Source of the DNA: Dehalogenimonas sp. 4OHTPN
GTDB taxonomy: Bacteria; Chloroflexota; Dehalococcoidia; Dehalococcoidales; Dehalococcoidaceae
Assembly (NCBI RefSeq): GCF_040448695.1
Contig: NZ_CP159307.1
Coordinates: forward strand, 1 to 64,000
DNA length: 64,000 nt
Direction of reading: 5' to 3'
The notes beneath the pieces are model-generated. The model was given only the letters and a program-made list of their open reading frames with translations, ran no database searches and was not told where the DNA came from. Positions within the stretch are counted from its first letter, which is position 1, and each line of letters begins with the position of its first letter. The translations under genes and the position numbers were made by a program. This document shows positions 5,293 to 40,452 of the stretch, in pieces.

Positions 5293-5362
5293 CCATGTTT
5301 CCCCCCGTGCCCGGTACTGCCGCTTCCTAACAGCCGCCGAATCAACATGAAAAATCAGTACA

Positions 5363-5372
5363 AATACGTATT
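5363..5372 (+). promoter_or_regulatory. AATACGTATT palindrome overlapping a -35 element
   Basis: The perfect 10-bp palindrome AATACGTATT runs into TTGACC (5371-5376), a good -35 box, with an AT-rich -10 region (TAAATA) about 17 bp further on, ahead of the lipoprotein gene at 5434. The same half-sites and overlap occur before the multicopper oxidase at 8789-8812, so this may be an operator shared by the two genes. Confidence 0.4.
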
Positions 5373-5433
5373 GACCTGGATTTGTTCTTCCGTAAATAAT
5401 CAAATGAACAAATAGTCCCCAACCTTGGAGTAA

Positions 5434-6222
5434 ATGATGATTGAGCGCAATCAACGGTCCCGAAACAAGCTGGCGATCTGCGCCTTGGGTCTGCTCTGCC
5501 TCTTGCTGGCCCTTCCAGCGTGCGATTCCACTTCTGGCGTTATCTCAGGGGAACTCGGCAAATCCTCCAGTGTCTCCATCGGCCAGACCCTGTCTTTCAC
5601 CGGAGCAGACCTATCCATCAGGTTCGCCGAGGTCATCTCCGACAGCCGCTGCCCGGCGGGTGTCGAATGTGTCTGGCCCGGCGAGGTATCGGTCAAAGTC
5701 CAGATTACCTATTTTAAGTCGCTGCATCAAAAGACTCTGGTTCAATCAGGCGCGGCTCCAGGCTTGACCATAGTCTTTTTCAACGAATACAAGATCGCGT
5801 TCAAAGTAACGCCCTACCCTCAAGCCGGCTCACCGATAAAAAAAGGGGATTACCGGCTGGAACTGGTCGTCACTAAAGAAGCGGCTTTGTCAGGTGGCGT
5901 TCTGGTCACTTTCGACGTCGTCGGAGAAAAATATTCTGTCTTCTTCCGGGAGCCTGACGCCATCCATGATGTGTTGGCGGTTCACAACGGCGCCAGTCAG
6001 GCTAGAATCCCCAGCGGTCGGGTGGTCAGGGGAGGAACGTTCTATAATCAGCCGTGGAACTGGCACATAGATCCGGACGACATCCAGATGGTGGAACTAA
6101 CTATCGAATTATGTGACGGCAGGCCTTCAGATGTTGAAGCCGACATTGACTATTGGGTCAATACCGTCGGCCGGTACTGTCCCTGGGGAGCGGTAATCAT
6201 TGCCGTGGAGGATTTCAGGTGA
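5434..6222 (+). CDS. Exported lipoprotein of unknown function
   Basis: 262 residues. The N-terminus is positively charged, followed by a hydrophobic core and a lipobox (LALPAC, Cys near residue 30), so it should be lipidated and anchored outside the membrane. The mature part starts with a segment containing SRCPAGVECVWPGEV. Two cysteines in that spacing recur in small secreted beta-rich proteins, but I do not recognise a named function. There are two adjacent ATG codons; the second (5437) sits better behind GGAG at 5427-5430. The next gene, a lipoprotein cytochrome, begins 35 bp downstream in the same direction, so they may be co-transcribed. Confidence 0.8.
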   Translation: MMIERNQRSRNKLAICALGLLCLLLALPACDSTSGVISGELGKSSSVSIGQTLSFTGADLSIRFAEVISDSRCPAGVECVWPGEVSVKVQITYFKSLHQKTLVQSGAAPGLTIVFFNEYKIAFKVTPYPQAGSPIKKGDYRLELVVTKEAALSGGVLVTFDVVGEKYSVFFREPDAIHDVLAVHNGASQARIPSGRVVRGGTFYNQPWNWHIDPDDIQMVELTIELCDGRPSDVEADIDYWVNTVGRYCPWGAVIIAVEDFR

Positions 6223-36023: not shown

Positions 36024-37265
36024 TTACAACTCGATCGCCGAATCCACATCAGGGAATCCGAAGGTCCGCTCGCACAGGTGGCAGCGGTAGCACTGGTTCC
36101 GGCAGTTCCGCAGCGCCAATTCCAGCTTCCGGGCCTCAGGCTTCATCCAGACGTCCTTGGCAAGCGCCTGTTTGATCTCGGTGACATCGGTTTTTACCTC
36201 GGACGAACATGACGGCGCGAACACCCAGAGATGCAGCGGTTCAAGGCCGTTTTCGACAATTTCGCCGTACGATGACATGAAAAATCCGCCGCCGGCTCTT
36301 TCCATTGACCGCCACCCGAAGCGGATCTCGCCGGCGCCCTGCGGCTTGAATTTGGAAAGCCGCCCGCTGTATTTGAAGATATCCACCAGACCGGCATATT
36401 CGGCGAAGGTCTCGACGCCGGTCCAGTAGCAATTGGCGCCGAACCGGGGCAGCATTGCCCCGCCCTGCTGATCGGTCCACCGGCGGCAGGTCAGCGCTCC
36501 CAGATCGCTGTCCCAGTAGTTTACCTGGCGCAGGTAAATCTGCAGGTCGTCATGCTCGCGCTTGAACGGGCAGGACGGCAGGCAGTCCTCCCACACCAGG
36601 AGGCTGGTCTTAACGTCCCTGCCGGGATGCTTCGACCTGTATCCCTCGACAGCATCCTTCACCCTCTTGAGTTCGTCTATATTGCGGTTGAGCGACCGGT
36701 CAAGCTGGATGACATCGTATCCCAGGTAGAGGTAGTCAAGCACCTGCTGGGCGCTGGAAACCTGCTGGTTGACCGTGTTTTTCCATTTCATCCCAGGGAA
36801 CCGCCGCTGCAACAGGCCTGTCCGCATCAGGTGATTGTTGGCCAGGGTGCAGTTCCGCAGCCCCCGGTGGTAGAAAGCGCCCAGCCAGTCCAGAAAGGCG
36901 CCGGCCACTCGGCTGTCAGAGCTGTAAAACATCTCCACCGGGATGTTGAGCTGGTTGATGGTGAGCGAGATTTCGATGCCGAATTCCCGCTGGATGCGGA
37001 AAAGATTGTCGATCTGGGTGTCGGAGGCTTCGACCCCCATCACGTTGCCGTAGGCTATGTCATGCTGGCGGGCATAGCTGTCATAGACCTCTTGCCCGCG
37101 GTATTTGTAGCGGAACACCTTGCCGAAGTAAATGTCGAAAATCTCATCGCGGAACCGCGGCGAGGCGTTTTTCACCGCTTCGTAATAGAGACCTGGTTCA
37201 GGCCAGTTGTCGTAGTGGGCTATTGAAATGCGCCGCTTAAGATCCAATCCACCCGCCCGAATCAT
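36024..37265 (-). CDS. Uncharacterised protein with cysteine cluster, possibly U32-peptidase-like
   Basis: 413 residues from ATG 37265; the upstream part of the open frame overlaps the rdhB terminator. I do not recognise a named family. The N-terminal two thirds alternate strand and helix in a TIM-barrel-like way (RISIAHYDNWPEPGLYYEAV; FGIEISLTINQLNIP; DVIQLDRSLNRNIDEL), which recalls U32-type proteins such as UbiU/TrhP. Cys occur in VWEDCLPSCPFKREHD, and the C-terminus holds CRNQCYRCHLC (CxxxCxxCxxC), a likely Fe-S or zinc site. Its own promoter is probable: TTGAAA and TAAATT separated by 17 bp. It lies directly downstream of rdhAB. Confidence 0.7.
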   Translation of the reverse strand: MIRAGGLDLKRRISIAHYDNWPEPGLYYEAVKNASPRFRDEIFDIYFGKVFRYKYRGQEVYDSYARQHDIAYGNVMGVEASDTQIDNLFRIQREFGIEISLTINQLNIPVEMFYSSDSRVAGAFLDWLGAFYHRGLRNCTLANNHLMRTGLLQRRFPGMKWKNTVNQQVSSAQQVLDYLYLGYDVIQLDRSLNRNIDELKRVKDAVEGYRSKHPGRDVKTSLLVWEDCLPSCPFKREHDDLQIYLRQVNYWDSDLGALTCRRWTDQQGGAMLPRFGANCYWTGVETFAEYAGLVDIFKYSGRLSKFKPQGAGEIRFGWRSMERAGGGFFMSSYGEIVENGLEPLHLWVFAPSCSSEVKTDVTEIKQALAKDVWMKPEARKLELALRNCRNQCYRCHLCERTFGFPDVDSAIEL

Positions 37266-37368: not shown

Positions 37369-37641
37369 TTAAGCTTTTTTCTGCCGGCGGGCGGTCAGCT
37401 GCCAGGCGATCACCATCAGGACGAGTCCAGGCAGACCGACGAACATCAGGAACTTGTTGGCCGCACCCGGGTTAAACTCGTTGCGGACTTCGACAAAGTT
37501 CTGGAGGGCAAAGAGCACCAGCAGCAGTCCGGCGATACCGATCAGCCACTCGTACCAGGCCATTTTCACGCCCTTGGAGCGCATCCAGGCGATCAGCGCC
37601 GCCAGGCCGAAACCGAGGATTAGTGCAATTACCAGCCACAT
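37369..37641 (-). CDS. rdhB: Reductive dehalogenase membrane anchor RdhB
   Basis: 90 residues with three hydrophobic helices (MWLVIALILGFGLAALIAWM; YEWLIGIAGLLLVLFALQNF; FLMFVGLPGLVLMVIAWQL), the size and topology of RdhB proteins. The conserved Glu in the segment between helices 2 and 3 (NFVEVRNE) is present. RdhB fixes the exported RdhA to the outer face of the membrane. It lies 21 bp downstream of rdhA and is followed by a terminator, so rdhAB forms a two-gene operon. Confidence 0.93.
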   Translation of the reverse strand: MWLVIALILGFGLAALIAWMRSKGVKMAWYEWLIGIAGLLLVLFALQNFVEVRNEFNPGAANKFLMFVGLPGLVLMVIAWQLTARRQKKA

Positions 37642-37662: not shown

Positions 37663-39231
37663 CTATTTGTATCCGCCGTGCATGGCGCCAAGAGCCGTCG
37701 AGTAGCCGTATGACGGCAGGGACATATCCCACCACTCTTCCTTGGCCTCGCCTTCCTTGAGGCCGAAGCCGAAGACGGTATCCATATCGGCGAAGAAGCC
37801 GTTCAGGATGCTGGTGTGGGCGATGGTGCCGCGGACAATGTCATGGACCAGGGCGCCGTACTGGGAGTTGAAGACGCAGACGCCGAAGCACAGCTGGCAG
37901 CCGTTGGACAGCGGGGCGCGGTACTGGGCGCAGGTGATGCCGTCGGTCCAGTAGGTCTTGCGGCCCAGCTTGTAGTACTCCGCCTCGCCTTCGCCCATGG
38001 GATCGAAGCCCAGGCCGGGCAGTGCCGGGTGCTTGGGGGTAATGCGTGAAGGATAAGCTTCGTAGGAGATCTCGCGGCCGCCCTTGGGCTCGATCGACTC
38101 GGACGGGCAGTGCGCCGCGCAGATGCCGCAGTCCTGGCAGAAGCGCCAGATGCCGGCGTCAATGGGCTTGGTGTGCTCCATCGGCAGGTCGGAATATAGT
38201 TCGAACAGGCCGACGGTGGAGCCGTGCTCCGGGCTGATGCTCATGATGGTATGCCGGCCGTTCTCCACCAGGCCGGTCAGTACAGCGCCGGCGATGCCGG
38301 GCATGGCGCCGTAGGGCTCATCGTTCATGTGCTGGTAGCCCAGGCCGCGGATGAACATCGAGGTGCAGGCGCGGATATTCTCGCGCAGGCGGTAGCGGGT
38401 GATGTTGGCCGCGCTGAAAATGGCGGAGTTGGGCGTGGTGCGGAACATTTCATGGGACTGCGGCACCGTGTATGACAGGGTGTAGACGCCGTGAGACGGA
38501 ATAGAGGTTATCTGGGTGGCAGCGTCGTAAGAGAACTTGGAGTCACTGGTGAAATTCATCGGCTGAACCCAGGTGGGCGGGGGCGGCCAGGTGGTCTTGC
38601 CCTCGAAGGGGAAGTAAGTCTGGGCAATGCTCTGGCGCCCGTGGAGGGCCAGCAGTTTCTGATGGTCGCCCTCAAGAGCCGCGGTACCGATGTTGGAGGC
38701 ACCGAAATGAGCCATCGCCGCTTCCATCATCTTGAGGTTTTCTTCCGGGGTGCCTTCCCACCGGGGAACGCCAAGCTGTTCAGGCGTGCTGATGGCGGCC
38801 AGGCGCTTGTCGGCGAATTTATCGGTGTCAACGGCGGTGAAGCCGAGGCCGCGGGAAGCATTGTTGAGCGCCTGGTCCCGCAGCGTCAGGCCTGGGGTCT
38901 TGTTCAGCATCTGGTCTTTGCGGGCCTGGGCTTGCTGGTTGAGCAGGGCGGTATATTCCGCCAGGCCCAGGTAGCGGGCGATGATGGCGCCGGACTGGGT
39001 GCTGTGGTAGCTGTGATGCCGCTTCATCAGGCCCCAGTCGATCTCGACTGTCGGCTCATCGACTTCCTTGACCCACCAGGCGCGCTTGCGTAAAGCGGTG
39101 GAAGATGAAATCAGTTCATCGACGTCATGATAGACCGGGCTGACCAGGCTGGCCGCGCCGAGGCCGGCGCCGGCAAAACCGAGATTCTTCATAAAATCGC
39201 GGCGGCTGACTGTGCTGTGAAAAATGGACAT
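37663..39231 (-). CDS. rdhA: Reductive dehalogenase catalytic subunit RdhA
   Basis: 522 residues. RdhA removes halogen from organohalides at a corrinoid, the terminal step of respiration. The Tat signal is SRRDFMKNLGFAG (Arg 10-11). The first 4Fe-4S motif is CQDCGICAAHC (Cys 365, 368, 371, 375), and the second is in TCAQYRAPLSNGCQLCFGVC. Both are complete. AGGAG lies 9 bp before the ATG. The N-terminus and length resemble vinyl chloride or dichloropropane dehalogenases of the Dehalococcoidia, but the substrate cannot be told from the sequence. A PAS/winged-helix regulator is transcribed divergently from the other side of a 411-bp intergenic region. Confidence 0.96.
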   Translation of the reverse strand: MSIFHSTVSRRDFMKNLGFAGAGLGAASLVSPVYHDVDELISSSTALRKRAWWVKEVDEPTVEIDWGLMKRHHSYHSTQSGAIIARYLGLAEYTALLNQQAQARKDQMLNKTPGLTLRDQALNNASRGLGFTAVDTDKFADKRLAAISTPEQLGVPRWEGTPEENLKMMEAAMAHFGASNIGTAALEGDHQKLLALHGRQSIAQTYFPFEGKTTWPPPPTWVQPMNFTSDSKFSYDAATQITSIPSHGVYTLSYTVPQSHEMFRTTPNSAIFSAANITRYRLRENIRACTSMFIRGLGYQHMNDEPYGAMPGIAGAVLTGLVENGRHTIMSISPEHGSTVGLFELYSDLPMEHTKPIDAGIWRFCQDCGICAAHCPSESIEPKGGREISYEAYPSRITPKHPALPGLGFDPMGEGEAEYYKLGRKTYWTDGITCAQYRAPLSNGCQLCFGVCVFNSQYGALVHDIVRGTIAHTSILNGFFADMDTVFGFGLKEGEAKEEWWDMSLPSYGYSTALGAMHGGYK

Positions 39232-39642
39232 GCGGTTCTCCTTTTCGTTCTTGCTTGTTGCGAAATCGTGCTGCTTTTCGGTCTCTCCCGACGTCAGGTG
39301 ATAAAATCAGCACCTCCTGCGGCGACTCTAGCTTGTGGAATCTTATTGGGATCCGGGTTATTAGTTGTTATTATTTAATTACTTATTGTTTGTATTCAAA
39401 ATACTAATACTGGAGGAAACTTATATCTGAAAAGCTGCCGTGTTTCATCGTACTAAAGGACTAGTACCATGCTGATTTATTTTATTTAATGTGAGGCCGC
39501 AACGTATCTATTAACAACCGTTAATTACGTATCTATGCTGATTTTTTTCCCTTAACTAATATGACGTGTGAGTTAGTGAAACGGGTTATTTTATGATGAT
39601 CCGCGTTAGTTTTATGGTATAATGCGTGTCTGAGGCGGCGAA
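39232..39642. promoter_or_regulatory. rdhA / regulator intergenic region with repeats
   Basis: This AT-rich 411-bp region carries paired short repeats. ACGTATCTAT occurs at 39502-39511 and 39527-39536, flanking the inverted repeat TTAAC/GTTAA (39511-39524). ATGCTGATTT occurs at 39469-39478 and 39535-39544. TATAAT at 39618-39623 is a good -10 for the rightward regulator gene. The repeats are candidate sites for the PAS regulator; no supported small gene is visible here. Confidence 0.45.
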
Positions 39643-40452
39643 GTGTTGAAGCAAGACCAACAACTATCTGAGGAACGGGCGCCTGGGCCCCTGGACTATC
39701 GCCTGCTGTTTGACATGGCTGATGATGCCATTTTCGTCTGGGAGAAGGAACCCGGCACGGAAAAAGTTCAACTGGTGGATGTCAACCAGGCCGCCTGCGC
39801 CCGCTACGGCTTCACCCACGAGGAATTCCTGGGGTTGGACGGAACTAAACTTAACACGCTGGACAGTTTCATCGCCTATAAAAAGAGAGCCAGCGAACTT
39901 CAGCGCACCGGCCACTGCATCATTGAACTGACGCATGTAGCCAAAAACGGCCAGCTTATCAATATCGAATCGAACGCTCATCAGTTCATCTCCGGCGGAC
40001 GGACTTTTGTTGTCTCAGTCTGCCGCGACCTTGCCGCCCGGAAACAAACCCAGCAGGAGGCTTTGGAGAGCCTGGTGAAAACTTTGGTTCACGACCGGCT
40101 TTCGGACACCCTGGATAAGCTTGAGACCGCCGCTTTATCTAGAAGAGCTGATTTTACGGACTTTGTATTCTCGGCGTCGCTTCGTAAAGTGTCGCACCGC
40201 GGCCGGACGGTTGATTTGACCTCTTCGGAGAGCGTCATTCTGCGCCTGTTGCTACGGGAAAGGGGTAAAGTCCTTGGCTTCCCAGCTTTTGCTAAAGCCC
40301 TCGGCAAAGCTCCAACCCCGGTCTTCGTCAAGCGCTTGAGAGTCCACATCCACAACCTGCGGCAGAAGCTGGAATCGGATCCGGCCACTCCCCGGATCGT
40401 CCTCTCCCGCCCCGGCAAGGGTTACCTTCTTTCGGAATCTACGGAAGCATAA
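39643..40452 (+). CDS. PAS-sensor / winged-helix one-component regulator
   Basis: 269 residues from GTG 39643, with GGCGGCGAA just upstream. The N-terminal half (about 20-140) is a PAS domain (YRLLFDMADDAIFVWEKEPG; NQAACARYGFTHEEFLGLDG). The C-terminal half (about 170-265) is an OmpR-type winged helix: VDLTSSESVILRLLLRERGKVL, the recognition helix VKRLRVHIHNLRQKL and the closing RPGKGYLLSE. There is no receiver or kinase domain. It is divergent from rdhA, so a role as the rdhAB regulator sensing redox state or a ligand is likely but unproven. Confidence 0.85.
   Translation: MLKQDQQLSEERAPGPLDYRLLFDMADDAIFVWEKEPGTEKVQLVDVNQAACARYGFTHEEFLGLDGTKLNTLDSFIAYKKRASELQRTGHCIIELTHVAKNGQLINIESNAHQFISGGRTFVVSVCRDLAARKQTQQEALESLVKTLVHDRLSDTLDKLETAALSRRADFTDFVFSASLRKVSHRGRTVDLTSSESVILRLLLRERGKVLGFPAFAKALGKAPTPVFVKRLRVHIHNLRQKLESDPATPRIVLSRPGKGYLLSESTEA

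Follow-up and report, generated by a model that had tools for sequence, protein, structure and literature searches.

The divergent rdhA-regulator locus

The window, that is, the whole analysed stretch of 64,000 nucleotides, belongs to a closed genome of 1.75 Mb (G000), of which it forms the first 64 kb. In this stretch, a reductive dehalogenase operon and the gene of a putative regulator are read away from each other, and the region between them extends over 39232-39642. The following features were distinguished:

37369-37641, minus strand: rdhB-like small membrane anchor, 90 aa, hydrophobic, directly after rdhA
37663-39231, minus strand: rdhA, reductive dehalogenase catalytic subunit, 522 aa, with Tat signal and two Fe-S motifs
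39370-39399, minus strand: promoter-like site for rdhA, TTGAAT-18-AATAAT, a consensus match only
39445-39492, plus strand: rdh box copy 1, with the inverted repeat GTACTA-N6-TAGTAC (39450-39467) and the core CATGCTGATTTATTTTATTTAAT (39468-39490)
39502-39536, plus strand: direct repeat of ACGTATCTAT, two copies starting at 39502 and 39527, 25 bp apart
39520-39556, plus strand: rdh box copy 2, with the core TATGCTGATTT at 39534-39544
39618-39623, plus strand: TATAAT, possible -10 element of the regulator gene, with no good -35 element at the right distance
39643-40452, plus strand: PAS/OmpR-type winged-helix one-component regulator, 269 aa, GTG start
39694-40062, plus strand: PAS domain (residues about 18-140), akin to the PAS domains of rdhA-facing histidine kinases
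40141-40434, plus strand: winged-helix domain (residues about 167-264), akin to the response regulators paired with those kinases

The catalytic subunit matches its family models clearly (PF13486, E 5e-73; TIGR02486, 227 bits against a cut-off of 160), and an 85% orthologue is encoded in strain G004 (1807692-1809260). The 90-aa reading frame has both the position and the size of rdhB; it was matched by no family model, and a similar 90-aa frame follows a relative of rdhA in G010. Directly 3' of it lies the gene of a 398-aa protein (36024-37220) with no Pfam match, a relative of which is encoded directly 3' of the orthologous rdhA in G004 (1806044-1807267). In the window genome, 32 genes score above the family cut-off for reductive dehalogenases; two of them (G000:1426064 and G000:1470081), 44 kb apart, encode identical proteins. 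The 52 dehalogenase-family matches counted in one congener correspond to the upper end of the range stated for Dehalogenimonas (PMC13390414).

In a 2026 comparative study of this genus, the regulatory genes described beside rdhA are those of two-component systems, MarR and CRP/FNR proteins, and only these, and the validated rdhA genes adjoin a two-component system (PMC13390414). The original prediction had started from rdhA lying usually near two-component or MarR-type genes, which agrees with this survey, where CRP/FNR genes are found too. The term 'PAS domain' is absent from its main text (PMC13390414), and nothing was found in the open-access literature about an rdhA regulator of the PAS one-component type or about the rdh box described below.

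Architecture and fold of the regulator

Residues 19-139 of the regulator match PAS models (PAS_9, E 9e-8; sensory_box, E 1e-10), and residues 187-263 match Trans_reg_C (E 1.4e-12; PF00486, 47.9 bits against a cut-off of 26.2), which places the protein in the OmpR winged-helix family. There was no PF00072 match, and an iterative profile search revealed no receiver either. The Pfam and NCBIfam scans returned no HisKA or HATPase domain, apart from matches over the PAS part, and no MarR or CRP domain. The protein is of one-component architecture, with a sensory and a DNA-binding domain in one chain and without phosphotransfer parts. The union of a PAS and an OmpR-type domain without receiver or kinase, divergent from rdhA, had been read from the sequence before, and these scans bear it out. 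The base composition by codon position of 39643-40452 is that of a coding gene.

The AlphaFold model (mean pLDDT 82) comprises a PAS fold (16-129), a helix of 38 residues (131-168) and a winged helix (174-264). By sequence, no PDB chain matched both domains. The fold neighbours over the PAS domain and the helix are LOV and PAS kinases; the LOV structures, with about 22% identity, are neighbours in fold only, and the cysteine motif of the NCRFLQ type is absent from the regulator PAS, which by eye has LGLDGTKLNT at that place. Haem, flavin and a halogenated ligand, all suggested originally, are candidates only, and haem is not supported as the sensed cofactor, as no haem ligand could be assigned by eye. 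The winged helix is the lowest scorer among the winged helices of its genome (50 bits) and has a long branch (1.38) in the winged-helix tree. Moreover, it has lost the Trp-Gly of its relatives, and their recognition helix RVYIRHLREK is changed to RVHIHNLRQK. Because of these four features, the DNA preference of the regulator may have shifted.

A rare protein type recurring beside rdhA

The frequency of this architecture was determined in nine genomes, eight from the genus and one, covered in part, from a neighbour within the family. In the surroundings of most OmpR-type domains found there with PF00486, each protein was scored for receiver, PAS, kinase, winged-helix and dehalogenase domains. 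All but three of the 124 winged-helix proteins in these nine genomes carry a receiver. The exceptions are the window regulator, a 281-aa protein of strain G004 (1594417-1595262) and one 106-aa fragment, so that only 2/124 are full-size proteins without a receiver. Both are PAS-winged-helix proteins and both are divergent from rdhA, the second at a distance of 199 bp. The fragment (G002:1519973-1520293) is an orphan winged helix that differs very little from the last part of the response regulator G002:1526315, and is probably a partial duplication.

Searches at the level of the class (393 genomes) and of the phylum (400 genomes), in which six candidates per genome were scored and remote cases may be missed, revealed no third PAS-winged-helix protein. 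A homology search in genome contigs and on plasmids returned partial domain matches only. A regulator gene lying mostly away from rdhA in other genomes would have spoken against the original prediction; the sole other protein of the same make-up in the whole-genome searches faces an rdhA.

Probable descent of both domains from two-component operons

Separate trees were calculated for the winged helices and the PAS domains, which are short; the trees are unrooted and the direction of change was read from nesting. The window winged helix groups (100/98) with the response regulators G000:140780, G007:539152, G004:84134 and G004:1457845, all of which sit in kinase-regulator operons facing rdhA. 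The window PAS groups (92/92, not starred) with the PAS domains of the kinases G000:139711, G007:539825 and G004:1456704, which belong to three of the same four operons. The two trees therefore agree, and both domains are nested in clades of one kinase-regulator operon family. In these parental operons the distance to rdhA is 210-402 bp; in the window it is about 411-412 bp.

The second PAS-winged-helix protein comes from another operon. Its PAS domain is sister to the second PAS domain of the kinase G004:1852774 (60% identity) and groups at 100/98 with the G007 counterpart, and its winged helix groups with the partner regulator of this kinase and relatives (95/90). Residues 4-176 align to residues 124-296 of the kinase (49%, E 2e-50), and residues 167-281 align to residues 118-227 of the partner regulator, just behind the receiver (46%, E 3e-34). 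This end-to-end alignment means that the protein consists of PAS, coil and winged helix and nothing else. A single origin of both PAS-winged-helix proteins was rejected when they were forced together in the trees of both domains (p-AU 0.020 and 0.011). Since the parental operons differ and a single origin is rejected, a two-component system has very probably collapsed into a one-component protein twice beside rdhA.

The simplest reading is that two separate deletions inside kinase-regulator operons joined the PAS and coil of a kinase to the winged helix of a regulator. As judged from sequence comparison, this is very probably correct; the unrooted trees, the short domains and the long branch of the window protein keep us from stating it more firmly. 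Linker residues 141-166 of the window regulator align confidently to neither parent. An H-box remnant considered in this linker (LVHDRLSDTL) was dropped, having no alignable support, and there are slight hints that residues 155-168 stem from the final helix of the receiver. At the DNA level, too little homology is left between the regulator and the parental operons for mapping of breakpoints. The original prediction is incomplete in this respect, as the derivation of the regulator from a kinase-regulator pair was missed.

The opposite direction, in which two-component pairs developed from an ancestral one-component form, accords with the established view that one-component systems are generally older, but it is highly improbable, given that the two proteins are nested at different places in the response-regulator and kinase clades and that so few OmpR-type proteins of the survey are built in this way.

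The rdh box in the intergenic region and across genomes

The TATAAT and the two 10-mers, each present twice, which had been reported between the genes, are there: the former at 39618-39623, ACGTATCTAT at 39502 and 39527, and ATGCTGATTT at 39469 and 39535. Two repeated 10-mers were reached by 101 of 2000 shuffles of the region, and the repeats alone are therefore weak evidence. No ACGTATCTAT pair was found before the other rdhA genes looked at, and its occurrence here may be due to chance. Between its copies lies a perfect inverted repeat, ATTAAC-AACC-GTTAAT (39510-39525), with a spacing like that of FNR/CprK-type half-sites; by chance alone, about one inverted repeat of such length would be expected in this region. 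Promoter-like sites numbered 3, with 1.0 expected, and the TATAAT, lacking a -35 element, was not listed by the promoter scan.

The upstream DNA of the orthologous rdhA in G004 is unrelated to that of the window except for a 49-bp stretch, 90% identical and present twice. This stretch is the counterpart of window 39445-39492, and one of the repeats of the original prediction lies in it. Neither a PAS-winged-helix gene nor a kinase-regulator pair lies beside this rdhA, and no orthologue of the regulator was found in G004. The element, here called the rdh box, is therefore not private to the regulator, and other proteins must use it. In G004 the box lies within a tandem duplication of about 163 bp (1809518-1809729), so that this strain has two nearly identical copies.

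The same box core is also found in front of rdhA both in the parental operons and at the locus of the second PAS-winged-helix protein. In 1.23 Mb of DNA, exact matches to TATGCYGATTT number 25, and some 20 of these precede rdhA genes; near rdhA, shuffled core words gave 0.13 sites. With a longer box pattern, 33 sites were found in eleven whole genomes, against 2 for the reversed pattern: 9 in the window genome, 11 in G004, 10 in G007 and 1 each in G005, G006 and G008. All sites with at most one mismatch (28/28) lie upstream of rdhA in one orientation. Among the five weaker ones, the two-mismatch sites of G006 and G008 have no rdhA nearby and are attributed to chance. The ATGCTGATTT repeat is meaningful for this reason, being part of a box whose genome-wide placement is far beyond chance. 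As the regulator's private operator, however, the repeats do not stand: ATGCTGATTT belongs to an element that is found before about 30 rdhA genes, most of them without an adjacent regulator.

Read towards rdhA, the box consists of 10-bp direct repeats, TTAATAAAAA-TAAATCAGCA-TAAATGCGTA-TTTAC, followed after 13-17 bp by TANNNT. This layout fits what would be expected of the site of an OmpR-type activator at -35. In a second form, mostly further from rdhA (94-444 bp), CATCG...AGTACTAGTAC replaces the last repeat, and copy 1 of the window is of this form. The distances from the two window boxes to the start of rdhA are 237 and 303 bp, where 70 bp is usual. The rdhA genes that carry a box are clustered in the tree of this family (9 changes, compared with 24.5 after shuffling), and a neighbouring regulator gene is absent from most of those inspected. 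The three many-box genomes are those that have the response-regulator clade; G005, with its one box, has no clade member.

Two further candidates were rejected. The inverted repeat GTACTA-N6-TAGTAC was considered as a general operator, but its genome-wide matches with one mismatch equal those of the reversed-pattern control, and it was kept only as a part of box copy 1. A box-like site at window position 5362 (minus strand; 5340-5395, PWM 23.5) fails the stricter pattern. It lies 72 bp upstream of a gene for a 262-aa lipoprotein-like protein with a BP74_N domain (5434-6222, plus strand), in a geometry like that before rdhA.

Proposed mechanism and alternatives

Computation established the domain make-up, the origin of both domains within a single operon family, the second occurrence in another strain, and the boxes. 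The explanation that we favour, and hold to be reasonably probable, is that the regulator is an operon-derived one-component factor which, as a PAS-paired dimer, binds the two boxes and controls rdhAB. An operon of the form (PAS-kinase)(receiver-winged helix) facing rdhA would have lost everything between the PAS and the DNA-binding domain. The product, most likely a dimer paired through its PAS domains, would perceive a cytoplasmic signal there and transmit it along the helix of 38 residues to a pair of OmpR-type winged helices, with no transfer of phosphate. Because both the sensing and the DNA-binding end of the parental pathway are retained in the regulator, the state of the PAS domain is likely passed by the helix to the winged-helix dimer on the boxes. 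The winged helices would occupy the two direct-repeat rdh boxes in the intergenic region, and in this way rdhAB and probably also the regulator's own gene would be controlled, presumably by activation rather than repression. Several observations speak against this explanation: the box is kept before the orthologous rdhA in G004, where the regulator is lacking; the winged helix is divergent and its recognition helix altered; the window linker aligns confidently to neither parent; and the window boxes are further from rdhA than is usual.

A different role for the same binding would be that of a decoy: the receiver-less protein would bind the boxes without any signal and compete with phosphorylated response regulators, such as that of the G000:139711-141571 pair, and would thereby repress or damp the box regulon. 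An intact parental-type pair and about nine box sites do coexist with it in one genome, in which most rdhA genes have no adjacent regulator, and constitutive binding is often seen in winged helices of the OmpR family freed of receiver control. However, the PAS domain, needless for a pure decoy, is well kept and modelled with high confidence, and the divergent position by one rdhA suggests a local job. We regard this role as unlikely.

It is also rather improbable that the boxes are read only by two-component regulators in trans, while the PAS-winged-helix protein acts elsewhere or on another intergenic site, e.g. the ACGTATCTAT repeat. The conservation of box copy 1 in G004, where the regulator is absent, points in this direction, as do the altered recognition helix and the restriction of the ACGTATCTAT direct repeat to the window locus. 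On the other hand, both independent PAS-winged-helix genes directly adjoin boxes, and autoregulation from the adjacent intergenic region is frequent in OmpR-type proteins.

The long branch, the low domain score and the lack of an orthologue in any congener could also be signs of decay, the gene being a truncated, drifting and non-functional fusion left by a broken two-component operon. We give this little credence, since the 269-aa frame is open, its base composition is that of coding DNA, the model retains both folds intact, and the second, independent case is likewise intact.

On a further reading, the collapse into phosphorylation-free regulators would have occurred at least twice and would here have yielded a product that shares its operator with an intact parental-type two-component system. 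A single regulon of some eight or nine dehalogenase genes might then be contested by two kinds of signalling, an idea that we put forward only tentatively.

Obligate organohalide respirers have many rdhA-linked sensors, and genetics is hard in these organisms. For asking what such sensors detect, a single soluble protein of 269 aa that retains the sensing part together with the DNA-binding part lends itself far better to work in vitro than a kinase with its regulator. Moreover, a ready list of target promoters, including those of many rdhA genes without an adjacent regulator, is provided by the rdh box, and with it a first predicted regulon in the genus. That two-component pairs should have been reduced to one chain twice, independently, is an evolutionary step of which no description was found in the open-access literature.

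Comparison with known systems

A PAS sensor joined directly to a DNA-binding domain, as in the window regulator, is known from RcoM and PpsR/CrtJ. These proteins differ from it in their DNA-binding domains, which are of the LytTR or Fis type, and RcoM has a known cofactor. Among regulators of dehalogenase genes, CprK of Desulfitobacterium is likewise a one-component protein, which senses a halogenated compound; as presented where PMC7755780 cites it, it differs from the window regulator in having a CRP/FNR fold, no PAS domain and an FNR-like palindrome as its site. The MarR-type Rdh2R of Dehalococcoides mccartyi CBDB1 resembles the window protein as a one-component winged-helix regulator located by rdh genes, whereas proteins of this type are, in the citing passages of the same paper, repressors of MarR fold without PAS that bind palindromic sites (PMC7755780). 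In Sulfurospirillum, PCE respiration has a proven response regulator of the OmpR family, PceP (RR2), whose binding sites are direct repeats located over the -35 region (PMC7755780). The OmpR-type winged helix and the direct repeats at the -35 of dehalogenase promoters are common to both cases, the binding in the window being predicted; PceP, however, is phosphorylated by its own kinase, and its repeat is CTATW-N17-CTATW (PMC7755780). The rdhPS-type two-component systems of Dehalogenimonas and Dehalococcoides, with cytoplasmic kinases and response regulators (PMC13390414), are the source type of both regulator domains and, like the window regulator, lie divergently before rdhA with the same box. 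Unlike these systems, the window regulator is one polypeptide, with no histidine kinase, ATPase or receiver.
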